Positions 12,034 to 32,501 of a stretch of DNA of 44,455 nucleotides are shown here, in pieces; within the stretch, counting starts at the first letter, position 1; each line of letters starts with the position of its first letter. The DNA is from an uncultured Pelagibacteraceae bacterium. Lineage in GTDB: Bacteria; Pseudomonadota; Alphaproteobacteria; Pelagibacterales; Pelagibacteraceae. A model generated the notes under the pieces. That model searched no databases, was not told the DNA's origin, and saw nothing but the letters and a program-made list of their open reading frames with translations. A program made the position numbers and the translations under genes. The stretch spans positions 1 to 44,455 of the forward strand of contig CACFKJ010000004.1 in assembly GCA_902566805.1 (NCBI GenBank), written 5' to 3'.

Positions 12034-12824
12034 TCTAAAAGTTCGATTGTTTCATCATCAATTTTTGGCATTTTTTTGTGCCATATTGTAAAGGACTGAT
12101 GTGCTTGATAAATAAACATCATTTTTCCATTTTCTACTTTATTTCCAAGTAATTTTGCTTTCTTTAAAAAAGTTGTTTCCCTAGGATTATAAATTACATC
12201 ATAAAAGAATTTATTTGGACCTGAAGATGAAAAATCAATCTTTATTTCTTCTGCATTATTCAATCCAATACTTGTTGCATTGATAACCATATCAAAATCT
12301 ATATTTGTCCCCCAATCAACTATTTCAATATCTTTAAATAAAACTTTTAAACTTTCTGCTTTTTCTTTAGTTCTATTGCTCAATGTAATTTTTGATGCAT
12401 TCAATTTTTTAAGCGAATAAATAATTGAAGGAGCTACACCACCAGCACCTAATATAAATATATTCTTGTTAGAAATATCATATTTTGCATATTTGATCGC
12501 CAATTCAAATCCTGCAATATCTGTATTATGTCCAATTGTAGACCCATTTTGTAAATAAATTGTATTTACCGATTGTGTTTCTTTAGCTTCTGGACTTAAT
12601 TCATCTAAAAAAGGAATAATTTCTTTCTTATATGGGACCGTAACATTTATGCCATGTAATTTATTCTCTTTAACCTCAGAAATAATATTTTCTATATCTT
12701 TAATCTCAAGTTTTTTTTTTTCATAAATCGCATCAATATTATTTTTCTTTAACCAATAATTATGAAGCTCAGGTGATAGAGAGTGCTCAATGGGTTTTCC
12801 TATAACTAAAAATTTTTTCTTCAT
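12030..12824 (-). CDS. aroE: Shikimate dehydrogenase
   Basis: IGKPIEHSLSPELHNYW; GINVTVPYK; NTDIAGF; INATSIGL. Confidence 0.96.
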   Translation of the reverse strand: MKKKFLVIGKPIEHSLSPELHNYWLKKNNIDAIYEKKKLEIKDIENIISEVKENKLHGINVTVPYKKEIIPFLDELSPEAKETQSVNTIYLQNGSTIGHNTDIAGFELAIKYAKYDISNKNIFILGAGGVAPSIIYSLKKLNASKITLSNRTKEKAESLKVLFKDIEIVDWGTNIDFDMVINATSIGLNNAEEIKIDFSSSGPNKFFYDVIYNPRETTFLKKAKLLGNKVENGKMMFIYQAHQSFTIWHKKMPKIDDETIELLD

Positions 12825-13401
12825 AAAGAATTTATGTATTCCTTAATTTTTTTAACTGGTAATCCCATAATTGTGTCTTCATCTCCTTCAATTTTTGAAA
12901 ATAAATTTCTACCCTCACCTTCAATTTGATAAACATTATAAGCATATAAAGCTTCATCACTTATTTTATTTAAATATTTATCAAGATCGTCATTAGACAT
13001 TTTTTTCATAGTTAATGCTGCTTTATCAGTATAGTTCCATATCATTGAACCATTTTTTGAAATACAGACTGAGCTTATTAGATGGTGTTTTTTACCATTA
13101 AGCTTTTTTAAAATTTCAAATGCTTCCTTTCGGTCCAAAGGCTTTGAAATAATTTCTCCTTCTAAATCAATAACACTATCTGCTCCAAGCACAATTTCAT
13201 CACTTTTTTTTGACTCACTTTATTTGCTTTCAATTCTGCTAAATTTTTGGAAATTATCTCTGGACTAGCTCCTTCATTTAAAAGACTTTGCTTTACAAGA
13301 TCTTCATCAACATTTGATGGTTCAACAACACATTTAATATTATTTTTTTTTAATATTTCTTTTCTTACATTGCTTTTAGAAGCCAAAATTAAATTAAACA
13401 T
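12821..13401 (-). pseudogene. maf: Maf-family nucleotide pyrophosphatase in two frames (13162..13401 N-terminal part; 12821..13192 C-terminal part)
   Basis: N-part MFNLILASKSNVRKEIL...LAELKANKVSQKK continues in another frame as SDEIVLGADSVIDLEGEIISKPLDRKEA; junction is an A8 tract (T8 on +, 13204-13211). May be functional through slippage. Confidence 0.8.
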
Positions 13402-14218
13402 TTTTTTTATTTTTTATCTCATAAATTTTTATTATTGAAGCTGCGGTTTCCTCAACTGATTTCCTAGTAACATCAATTATTGGCCAATTAAATTTTTTAA
13501 ATGTTTTTTTTGCATAATCCAGTTCTTTTATGATATCTTCTAAATTTGTATATTCAGTCTCATTTTTTTCGTTTAAACTGTTCATTCTGTTTCTTCTTAG
13601 GTCAAACAATCTTTTTGGATCTGTGGTTAAGCCAACTGCACATATGCTGGAAGGTTCTTTTCTTAAAAAATCTGGTATTGAATTTTCGTTAACTATGGGA
13701 ATATTGGAAGTTTTAAAACCACGGTTTGCAAGATAAATTGATGTTGGAGTTTTACTGGTTCTGCTTACTCCTAATAAAATTATATCAGATTTGGATATGT
13801 CTTCGGATGAATTACCATCGTCGTGTTTCATGGAAAACTGAATGGCTTCCACCCTATCATAATATTCTTCGTCTAAAACATGTTGCCCACTAGGAACATG
13901 AGAAGCTTTTTGATGTAAAATTTTAGAAAAATTTAATATAAGGTCTCCTAAAACTCCAAAACATGGAATCTTTTTTGATTCACTTTCTTCAGTTAAAAAT
14001 TTTGCTAATTTGCTATCAACAATTGTGTAAAGAACAATAGAATGTTCATTTTTAGCTTTTTCTAATATTTGAGAAACTTGATTTTCTGTTCTAGTAAAAG
14101 AAAATTGGTTGGTATTATATTTAAAATTCTTAAATTGAGCTTTAAGTGCCATAAAAATCCTATCGAGAGTTTCTCCGGTTGAGTCAGAAATTAAGTAAAT
14201 TTGATATGTATCTTTCAT
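13394..14218 (-). CDS. ppsR: PEP synthase / pyruvate phosphate dikinase regulatory protein (DUF299)
   Basis: YLISDSTGETLDRI; DIILLGVSRTSKTPTSIYLANRGFKTSNIP. Confidence 0.95.
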   Translation of the reverse strand: MKDTYQIYLISDSTGETLDRIFMALKAQFKNFKYNTNQFSFTRTENQVSQILEKAKNEHSIVLYTIVDSKLAKFLTEESESKKIPCFGVLGDLILNFSKILHQKASHVPSGQHVLDEEYYDRVEAIQFSMKHDDGNSSEDISKSDIILLGVSRTSKTPTSIYLANRGFKTSNIPIVNENSIPDFLRKEPSSICAVGLTTDPKRLFDLRRNRMNSLNEKNETEYTNLEDIIKELDYAKKTFKKFNWPIIDVTRKSVEETAASIIKIYEIKNKKNV

Positions 14219-14502
14219 GTATAAAATATTTATAACTTATTAATAAATTAACTAAATATAATTGATTTAATATTCTTTGTATTTTTTACAAAAATAAGCC
14301 ATTTAATTAACAATTTTAAACATGTTGATAAAATTTAGTGAATTAAACATATTGTAAAATATTATGCAAAAAAATGCGTATTTTAAATGTTTATATAATA
14401 TTTATATTGTTTATAAAAAGTTGATAATTTGTTGATAATTAATAATTTACATAATTCACAAGATAATAAACAACTAATAAAGGATATATATATTAATTAA
14501 TT
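14219..14502. other. Candidate chromosomal replication origin (oriC)
   Basis: 284-bp extremely AT-rich non-coding gap between divergent ppsR and hemE; TGTTGATAA at 14323-14331 and 14430-14438 (reverse complement TTATCAACA), AGTTGATAA at 14419-14427, TAATTCACA at 14452-14460; hemE flank as in the Caulobacter origin. Confidence 0.7.
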
Positions 14503-15507
14503 ATGAGTCTAATTGCTAAGTGTATAAAAAATAAAGATAAAACTATAAAACCTATTTGGTTAATGAGGCAGGCAGGAAGGTATTTGCCAGAATTTAGAGA
14601 TATAAGAATAAAAAATCCAGATTTTATTAAATTATGTCTCAATAAAAATTTATCTTCCGAAATTACTTTACAACCAATTAAAAGGTTTGGTTTTGATGCA
14701 GCTATAATTTTTTCTGATATTTTAATGTTACCTTATGGTTTAGGTCAAAAAGTTGAATTTAAGAAAAATTTTGGACCTATCCTAGGTGAATTAGATTTAG
14801 CTAGTATTGAAGAAATTAATGAAAGAGTTTTCACAGACAAATTAACGCCAGTTTACGATGCAATCAGAAGTGTAAAGGAAAATAAACTTACAAAAAATAA
14901 AGAGGTAATAGGTTTTATTGGAGCTCCGTGGACTTTATTAGTTTACATGCTTAACAAACAATCTCCAAAAAAAGAATTAAGTAGTGAAATTTTAAAAGAT
15001 AAAAATAAAATAAAAAGTTTGTTTAATATAATTGATAAGTATTTAAAAATTCATATTAAGAATCAAATAAACGCGGGAGCTACAATTATACAAATTTTTG
15101 ATAGTTGGGCTGGTCTCGTTGATAATAAATCTTTAGATAATTATATTTATGAACCGACTATTAAATTAGTTCAATTTGTTAAGTCGCTTAATACGCCAGT
15201 TATATGTTTTCCTAGAAATATTCAAGATTATAAGAAATATGTTGAAATAACTAATCCAGATGTAATTAATATTGATTATAACGTTGATCCAAAAAAAATT
15301 AGAGATCAAATAGGAATAGTCATTCAAGGTGGAATGGATCCCAAATTTTTACTTAATGATAGGGAAAAATTAAAAAAAGAAGTATTAAATTATTTAAATT
15401 TATTTAAAGACCACCAATACATATTTAATTTAGGTCACGGTGTTTTACCAGAAACGGACCCTGGTACAGTAGAATATTTAGTAAAGTTAATTAGAGATTT
15501 TAAATGA
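14503..15507 (+). CDS. hemE: Uroporphyrinogen decarboxylase
   Basis: PIWLMRQAGRYLPEFR; FGFDAAIIFSDIL; FNLGHGVLPETDP. Confidence 0.98.
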   Translation: MSLIAKCIKNKDKTIKPIWLMRQAGRYLPEFRDIRIKNPDFIKLCLNKNLSSEITLQPIKRFGFDAAIIFSDILMLPYGLGQKVEFKKNFGPILGELDLASIEEINERVFTDKLTPVYDAIRSVKENKLTKNKEVIGFIGAPWTLLVYMLNKQSPKKELSSEILKDKNKIKSLFNIIDKYLKIHIKNQINAGATIIQIFDSWAGLVDNKSLDNYIYEPTIKLVQFVKSLNTPVICFPRNIQDYKKYVEITNPDVINIDYNVDPKKIRDQIGIVIQGGMDPKFLLNDREKLKKEVLNYLNLFKDHQYIFNLGHGVLPETDPGTVEYLVKLIRDFK

Positions 15508-25359: not shown

Positions 25360-26000
25360 TTGATTCGGAAATTATAAAAAACAAAAAATTTTTTTCTTTA
25401 GATGTTTCACGTGAAACCTCAAAAGATCTTATGGAGTACAGTTCTTGTATAATATCTAAAAATAAAGAGATAAATTTAATTAGCTCAAGCACGGAAAAGT
25501 CAATAAATACAAGGCATATTCAGGATAGCGCGCAAACTATTGATTTTATTGATAAAAAAGATATAAAAATTTGTACAGATCTAGGTTCAGGTGCAGGTTT
25601 TCCAGGAATAGTTTTATCAATTTTGATGAAACATAAAAATCCACTATTCAAAGTAATATTTTATGAAAAGAGTTTTCATAAAAGTAATTTTTTAAGAGAA
25701 ATGTCAGAAAAATTTAAATTAAATACAGAAATTAATCAGAAAAATATTTTTAAAGAAAAAGATTTAGAAACAGATGTCATAATTTCTAGAGCATTTAAAC
25801 CATTGCCAAAAATTCTAGAAATAGCGTCAACTAACTTTAAAAACTATAAGTATATAGTCTTATATTTAGGAAAGAGTGGAAAAAAAATTCTTAATGATAC
25901 TTTAAAAAAATGGACATTTGATTATGAACAAAAAAAAAGTTTAACAAATCAAGACTCTCTAATAGTTAAAATTTCAAACATAGAAAAAAAAAATGGATAA
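25356..26000 (+). CDS. rsmG: 16S rRNA (guanine527-N7)-methyltransferase RsmG (GidB)
   Basis: [28 protein letters not shown]; mnmEG-rsmG-parAB order. Confidence 0.95.
25403..25418. promoter_or_regulatory. parS-like centromere site inside rsmG
   Basis: tgtttcacgtgaaacc: 15 of 16 bases of the palindrome TGTTTCACGTGAAACA; parAB follow directly. Confidence 0.9.
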
Positions 26001-26793
26001 AAAAATTATATCAGTGATAAATCAAAAAGGAGGTGTGGGGAAGACAACAACAGTAATAAACTTAGCAGCAGGATTATCAATGAAAGGTAAAAAAATTTTA
26101 GTAATCGATCTTGACCCTCAAGGAAATGCAACGACTGGACTCGGTTTATCAAACACTGAGAGTTCGGAACAAACTATATACTCAGTTCTCAATGGTAACA
26201 AAAAAATATCTGAGGTAGTGAAAAAAACAAAATTTGAGAATCTAGATTTAATCACTTCTAACGTAGATTTGTCAGGTTTAGAGGTAGAAACAGCAGGAGA
26301 TAGTAGAAGAGCCTTCATGTTGAAGGATGAATTAGCTGCATATTTAAATGATTTTAAAGCATCTTATGATTATGTGCTGATAGACTGCCCACCGTCATTG
26401 AGTTTGTTAACAATAATGGCGCTTGTTTCATCTAACTCCCTTGTAGTTCCACTTCAAACAGAATTTTTTGCTTTAGAGGGCTTAACTCAGCTGATGAAAA
26501 CCATAGACCGTATAAAAAATAATTTAAATCCAGAATTAGCAATTAAAGGAATACTTCTTACGATGTACGATAAAAGAAATAAACTTTCCAGCGAAGTTGA
26601 AAAAGATGCAAGAGAATATTTTAAGGAAAAAGTTTATAGAACAGTTGTTCCTAGAAATGTAAGATTGTCAGAAGCACCTTCGCACGGAGTACCGGTATTG
26701 CTATACGATAAAAACTGCCCTGGCAGTAAATCATATTTCAATTTTACTGAAGAGTTTTTAGATCAAGATAAATATATGGAGACCGCTGCATGA
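25993..26793 (+). CDS. parA: Chromosome partitioning ATPase ParA
   Basis: ISVINQKGGVGKTTTVINLAAGL; LIDLDPQGNATTGLG. Confidence 0.98.
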   Translation: MDKKIISVINQKGGVGKTTTVINLAAGLSMKGKKILVIDLDPQGNATTGLGLSNTESSEQTIYSVLNGNKKISEVVKKTKFENLDLITSNVDLSGLEVETAGDSRRAFMLKDELAAYLNDFKASYDYVLIDCPPSLSLLTIMALVSSNSLVVPLQTEFFALEGLTQLMKTIDRIKNNLNPELAIKGILLTMYDKRNKLSSEVEKDAREYFKEKVYRTVVPRNVRLSEAPSHGVPVLLYDKNCPGSKSYFNFTEEFLDQDKYMETAA

Positions 26794-27641
26794 TAAATCC
26801 TTTTAAGCAAAAAAGAGGTTTGGGAAGAGGTTTATCATCATTAATAGGAGATACATCTTCAAATTCCAAAATAAATAAAATATCAGTAAGCTCAATAACA
26901 AGAAATAAATATCAACCTAGAAAAAATTTTAATAAAGAAAATTTAGAAGATCTCACAAATTCAATTAAAGAACGTGGAATAATCCAACCAATTATAGTTA
27001 GAAAATCTAAAAGCAATGAAAATAAATTTGAAATAGTTGCAGGGGAAAGAAGATGGATTGCTGCTCAAAACGCAGGTTTACATGAGGTTCCAGTAGTAGA
27101 GGTTGATGTTGATGATTTGAAATCCCTTGAATTTGCAATCGTAGAAAATGTTCAAAGACACGATTTAAATCCAGTAGAAGAAGCTCAAGGATACCAAAGA
27201 TTAATAGATGAATTTAATTATGATCAAGAAAAAGTTGCAAAATTTATTGGAAAAAATAGAACACACATTACTAATTGTTTAAGGATATTATCTCTTCCCA
27301 AAGAGGTAATTAATTTAATAGAAGAAGAAAAACTTTCTCAAGGGCATGCAAAAGTTCTTGTCGGTTTAGATAACTCCTATTTTCTTGCTAAGAAAATTAT
27401 TGATAAAAAACTCTCAGTAAGACAAACAGAAAATTTGATTAGAGTGATTAAAAATCCTAAAAGATTTAAATCAATTTCTAAAGATTCAAATATTAAATAT
27501 TTAGAAAACTCTTTGAAAGAAAAATTGGGAATTAATGTATTCATTATTAATAAAAAAAATAATAGAGGCTCAATCAGCTTTGAATATAAAGATTTACAAC
27601 AACTAAATAAGATAATAGAGGTTATTAAGTCTAATTATTAG
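26790..27641 (+). CDS. parB: Chromosome partitioning protein ParB
   Basis: GLGRGLSSLIG; IVAGERRWIAAQNAGL; ENVQRHDLNPVEEA. Confidence 0.98.
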   Translation: MINPFKQKRGLGRGLSSLIGDTSSNSKINKISVSSITRNKYQPRKNFNKENLEDLTNSIKERGIIQPIIVRKSKSNENKFEIVAGERRWIAAQNAGLHEVPVVEVDVDDLKSLEFAIVENVQRHDLNPVEEAQGYQRLIDEFNYDQEKVAKFIGKNRTHITNCLRILSLPKEVINLIEEEKLSQGHAKVLVGLDNSYFLAKKIIDKKLSVRQTENLIRVIKNPKRFKSISKDSNIKYLENSLKEKLGINVFIINKKNNRGSISFEYKDLQQLNKIIEVIKSNY

Positions 27642-32279: not shown

Positions 32280-32501
32280 TTAAAAGACACTTTCATATAG
32301 CATTATAAATATTAACAATCAGCAATTGTTGAATTTAGTCTAATCACTAAAAAAAGCCAATTTTTTCAAGCAAAATTGTGATGTATTTTTGCAACACATT
32401 AATAAAAAATTATAAATAATCAATATTATTAAAGGAAGAAATTGCAAATTTTGTTAAAAAAGCAACGTTTATAATTAATTATAACAAATAAGGAGAAAAT
32501 T

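Follow-up and report, generated by a model that had tools for sequence, protein, structure and literature searches.

The ppsR–hemE intergenic gap as the probable chromosomal replication origin of a SAR11 bacterium

In this SAR11 (Pelagibacterales) bacterium, the intergenic gap between ppsR and hemE (positions 14219–14502) is very probably the origin of chromosomal replication, oriC, as judged from comparison with related genomes. The window, that is, the whole stretch of 44,455 nucleotides that was analysed, belongs to contig C4 of a 901-kb assembly in 51 contigs. The initial annotation had proposed an origin here, and conservation, synteny and the proximity of parS make the case stronger than was then claimed.

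The gap and its DnaA-box-like sites

The features are listed below. Counts out of 104 refer to the alignment of the gaps of 104 relatives, from which box spacing was also taken and which may slightly favour constant spacing.

13394–14218, minus strand: ppsR (PF03618, E 1.5e-89; COG1806/DUF299 family), conserved boundary gene
14219–14502, no strand: candidate oriC, whole ppsR/hemE intergenic region (from length and conservation in relatives)
14227–14235, minus strand: box B1, TTATAAATA in the window, consensus TTATTAACA; at most one mismatch to TTATNNACA in 95/104
14304–14312, plus strand: box B2, TAATTAACA in the window, consensus TTATTAACA; at most one mismatch in 98/104
14323–14331, minus strand: box B3, TTATCAACA, with the weakest conservation of the seven; at most one mismatch in 52/104
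14408–14416, minus strand: box B4, TTATAAACA, first of the 11-bp array; B4–B5 spacing 11 bp in 103/104
14419–14427, minus strand: box B5, TTATCAACT, second of the array; B5–B6 spacing 11 bp in 104/104
14430–14438, minus strand: box B6, TTATCAACA, third of the array; distance to B7 fixed in 104/104
14452–14460, plus strand: box B7, TAATTCACA in the window, consensus TTATTCACA, adjoining the unwinding tract; at most one mismatch in 88/104
14464–14480, minus strand: DnaA-trio-like tract, NTA triplets of the top strand (from TA-step phase across the family; degenerate in the window species)
14480–14502, no strand: AT-rich stretch adjoining hemE, presumed unwinding element (from sequence; TATATATA at the same place in f2)
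14503–15507, plus strand: hemE (PF01208, E 1.9e-85), conserved boundary gene
25404–25417, no strand: parS, GTTTCACGTGAAAC, with no other intact copy in this assembly, about 11 kb from the gap
25993–27641, plus strand: parA and parB (PF13614, PF02195, PF17762)

With 284 bp and a GC content of 0.130, the gap is indeed the largest non-coding one in the window, as the initial annotation had stated; the runner-up among ORF-free gaps has 222 bp (32280–32501), and a GC content as low as this is found in only 31 of all 284-bp frames of the window. Its AT content lies above the genome level (13% GC in the gap), as is expected of a hemE-type origin. The flanking genes diverge as described before, ppsR leftward and hemE rightward, and no tRNA or Rfam genes were detected in the window. 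ppsR belongs to the DUF299 family, COG1806; the gap occupies the hemE/COG1806 intergenic position typical of this origin type, and 107 relatives agree. The next gene after ppsR, maf (12821–13395, minus strand), is split, with its N-terminal part in one frame and the remainder in another (overlap near 13190). This is a frameshift in the assembly; it may stem from faulty sequencing, or the gene itself may be broken.

We compared the gap among 107 loci of the window's own family (f1) and 18 loci of a sister family (f2), an alignment that the initial annotation had suggested as a check, and the outcome was strongly positive in both families. In f1 the gap always lies between ppsR (minus) and hemE (plus) and measures 260–286 bp in the 107 relatives, with a median pairwise identity of 61% among the 104 aligned gaps. 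No ppsR match was found in 24 genomes of f2, and in the 18 of these where hemE was found the gap persists at 271–281 bp, between maf and hemE, and retains a box, NTA triplets and TATATATA. Helical phasing of the steps in gap length (about 261/271/282) was also considered and failed after relatives were collapsed (mean distance 2.17 vs 2.63 expected, n=9). One SAR11-type ppsR–hemE gap (L086) lies on a contig filed under a Flavobacteriaceae MAG, probably through a binning error.

The alignment places seven DnaA-box-like sites at conserved positions. B1 lies near ppsR, B2 and B3 in the middle of the gap, followed by the array B4–B5–B6 and then B7, which starts 22 bp past the start of B6. The repeats reported initially stand as placed (TGTTGATAA at 14323–14331 and 14430–14438, AGTTGATAA at 14419–14427, 11 bp before the second of these, and TAATTCACA at 14452–14460). 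Overlooked at that stage were TGTTTATAA at 14408–14416, which completes the three-copy 11-bp array, the degenerate boxes at 14227 and 14304, and the trio-like tract past 14460. B1, B2 and this tract are degenerate in the window species itself. Moreover, a GCTTCAAT-like element between B3 and the array (window 14361–14380, aligned column near 14367) is conserved in most relatives; it has diverged in the window species and does not fit the IHF consensus.

Most boxes depart from TTATCCACA at position 6, where C is found only in B7 and, in consensus, in B3, while the remaining boxes carry A; the CACA of B7 is nearly invariant among relatives. The E. coli DnaA-box consensus is TTWTNCACA, as quoted in PMC7561715, and by E. 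coli rules the boxes with A at position 6 would be weaker sites of uncertain affinity. SAR11 DnaA is present, and its domain IV has the recognition motifs known from E. coli, so that a changed specificity is not needed.

The unwinding tract and a model of initiation

Past B7, TA steps occur mostly at offsets 5, 8, 11, 14 and 17. Among 87 distinct tracts, which come from related sequences and are hence not independent, 84% of the TA steps fall in one phase, against a shuffle maximum of 45%. In f2, three genomes carry an explicit CTACTACTA or longer at this position, and the tracts of this family continue into TATATATA. A DnaA-trio arrangement consists of a box, a spacer, triplets and AT-rich DNA, with strand and order as here (PMC8287927; PMC7561715), and the C. 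difficile example includes CTACTACTA (PMC7561715). At least three in-phase triplets lying 0–16 bp past a box were found across f1 by phase statistics and in the three f2 genomes, but only partly in the window, whose own tract is degenerate and in phase only in part. No GC-rich cluster between box and trios was seen in f1.

On this arrangement, DnaA would bind the distal boxes B1–B3 and a cooperative array formed by the three co-oriented boxes B4–B6, 11 bp apart, together with the oppositely oriented B7. A DnaA-ATP oligomer could then grow from B7 onto the single-stranded trio tract and open the AT-rich DNA beside hemE. The DnaB helicase would be loaded at the opened DNA, and DciA, which serves other alphaproteobacteria in this step, would probably take part; searches of seven genomes detected DciA in five, the exceptions being G004 and the incomplete G000. 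Replication would proceed bidirectionally, and ParB at the nearby parS would segregate the new origins.

Motif tests in the gaps for CtrA, GANTC, GATC and IHF gave no support for those factors. No CtrA sites (TTAA-N7-TTAA) are present in the window gap. Such sites are few or variable in related origins (PMC1914354), so we did not treat them as essential, and Pelagibacter is reported to lack ctrA (PMC2877005). The IHF consensus occurs in 21% of gaps vs 12% of shuffles, with two matches in the window, and IHF sites are not clearly present. GANTC is rarer in the f1 ppsR–hemE gaps than in shuffles (0.07 vs 0.58 per gap).

Chromosomal setting and alternative readings

The initial annotation noted that the Caulobacter origin abuts hemE. 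The Caulobacter origin, mapped experimentally, and the predicted Rickettsia origin both lie between hemE and COG1806 (PMC1914354), and the SAR11 synteny matches them. The parS site noted about 11 kb away was recovered as well. In the 41 genomes with parS and the gap on one contig, the intact parS always lies near the gap, at 7.4–11.2 kb in 24/24 f1 genomes and 8.4–13.5 kb in 17/17 f2 genomes. In a subset of f1 relatives the intact parS is accompanied by another parS-like sequence that carries one mismatch, at a distance of exactly 332 bp (for example G004:C8:69605 and 69937; likewise G010, G013, G023 and G027).

The gap separates two divergent genes and must contain their promoters, and DnaA can also act as a transcription factor. 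The gap might then hold only the shared promoters of ppsR and hemE; the repeats would be operators bound by DnaA or some other regulator, and replication would start elsewhere. We regard this as very unlikely, because the size and the hemE-side anatomy of the gap persist after ppsR was lost in f2, which argues against a mere ppsR promoter, and because the boxes are rigidly spaced, the trio tract is periodic, parS is always close and the location matches that of known origins.

An origin at dnaA–dnaN, as in many bacteria, would be separated from the gap by about 63 kb in G012, a complete relative; the classic order, dnaA and then dnaN, is kept. Gene-strand bias in G012 puts the best origin at 1.24 Mb, and the gap (1.262 Mb) scores at most 2 units below this best; with 63% co-directional the bias is weak, and the broad 95% bootstrap range, 1.13–1.50 Mb on the unwrapped 1.343-Mb circle, also takes in dnaA at 1.199 Mb. 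The skew check proposed initially is consistent with the gap, at a resolution too low to separate it from dnaA; the strand score at 1.20 Mb is only a little lower (172 vs 188). The skew analysis covered G012 stretches (713 kb of 1343 kb) and one G037 contig, and fourfold-site skew was uninformative there. The dnaA-adjacent reading is nevertheless extremely improbable: no box cluster was found beside dnaA, where the 260 bp upstream are nearly box-free (0.08 TTATNNACA per sequence vs 3.36 in the hemE gap, 24 relatives), and parS lies beside hemE, not dnaA.

As to the words themselves, conservation of the repeats in relatives holds for the wider form TTATN[AC]ACA and not for the literal GTTGATAA word. 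The wider form occurs 3.12 times per gap in relatives vs 0.11 in mononucleotide shuffles, an enrichment of about 28-fold, and its density is 11.58/kb in the gap vs 0.148/kb in flanking sequence. Its top cluster is the gap in 65 of 68 loci, and also within the 713 kb of G012 examined; a DnaA-box cluster that stands out in this way is expected of a hemE-type origin. In the whole G012 genome, the sole pair of TTATNCACA sites less than 300 bp apart falls in the gap; this full-genome ranking covered TTATNCACA only, and TTATNAACA occurs in at least 100 places in G012. The octamer GTTGATAA is uninformative alone, with 94 matches throughout this assembly vs 107 for the reversed control, and neither TTATNCACA nor GTTGATAA showed genome-wide enrichment. 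The paired-box pattern GTTNATAANNNGTTNATAA was not specific genome-wide when one mismatch was allowed, and its only two exact matches in this assembly both lie inside the gap. The signal beyond chance lies in clustering, spacing and conservation rather than in the word GTTGATAA itself. That the repeats are random words of very AT-rich DNA, as the count of GTTGATAA taken alone would allow, is excluded by the alignment and has a negligible likelihood, since the fixed spacing is kept despite 61% median identity, with 33 clusters below 75% identity, and the boxes are so strongly enriched over shuffles.

Comparison with known origins

SAR11 are among the most abundant ocean bacteria, and metagenome-based growth estimates require that their origin be known. 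One study of SAR11 metagenome coverage describes one origin and one terminus (PMC9589681). We found no base-level SAR11 origin in the open literature; a computed prediction may exist in DoriC or in subscription papers. The gap supplies a base-level candidate, which remained beside hemE after the loss of ppsR. In the genomes examined, methods that put the origin at dnaA would miss it by about 60–70 kb, or about 5% of the chromosome. We tentatively suggest that the SAR11 origin may be a minimal, CtrA-free one, about 280 bp long and composed mostly of weak boxes substituted at position 6 (TTATNAACA) in a rigid 11-bp array with one better box beside the trios; the timing of initiation might thus depend on DnaA-ATP and escape the cell-cycle brake of alphaproteobacteria.

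On comparative grounds, the gap is a well-resolved additional predicted origin of the alphaproteobacterial hemE type. It resembles Cori of Caulobacter crescentus and the Rickettsia origin in both boundary genes, an AT-rich gap, a DnaA-box cluster and a location apart from dnaA (PMC1914354). However, the SAR11 gap is shorter (about 280 bp vs 383–404 bp), control by CtrA is not expected in SAR11 (ctrA reported absent, PMC2877005), and the SAR11 boxes are mostly TTATNAACA, with a trio-like tract resolved by comparison. In Wolbachia, Ehrlichia and Anaplasma (hemE/COG1253; PMC1914354) the origin likewise remained with hemE when the other neighbour changed, whereas the new neighbour in SAR11 f2 is maf, a change that the loss of ppsR alone explains. 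Finally, the basal unwinding system of Bacillus subtilis, a DnaA-box with DnaA-trios (PMC8287927, PMC6669920), shares the box, short spacer, triplets and AT-rich DNA, ordered alike and on the same strand. The SAR11 region differs in being much more AT-rich, in having no GC-rich spacer in f1, in triplets that are mostly ATA/CTA rather than pure CTA, and in a site that is not adjacent to dnaA.
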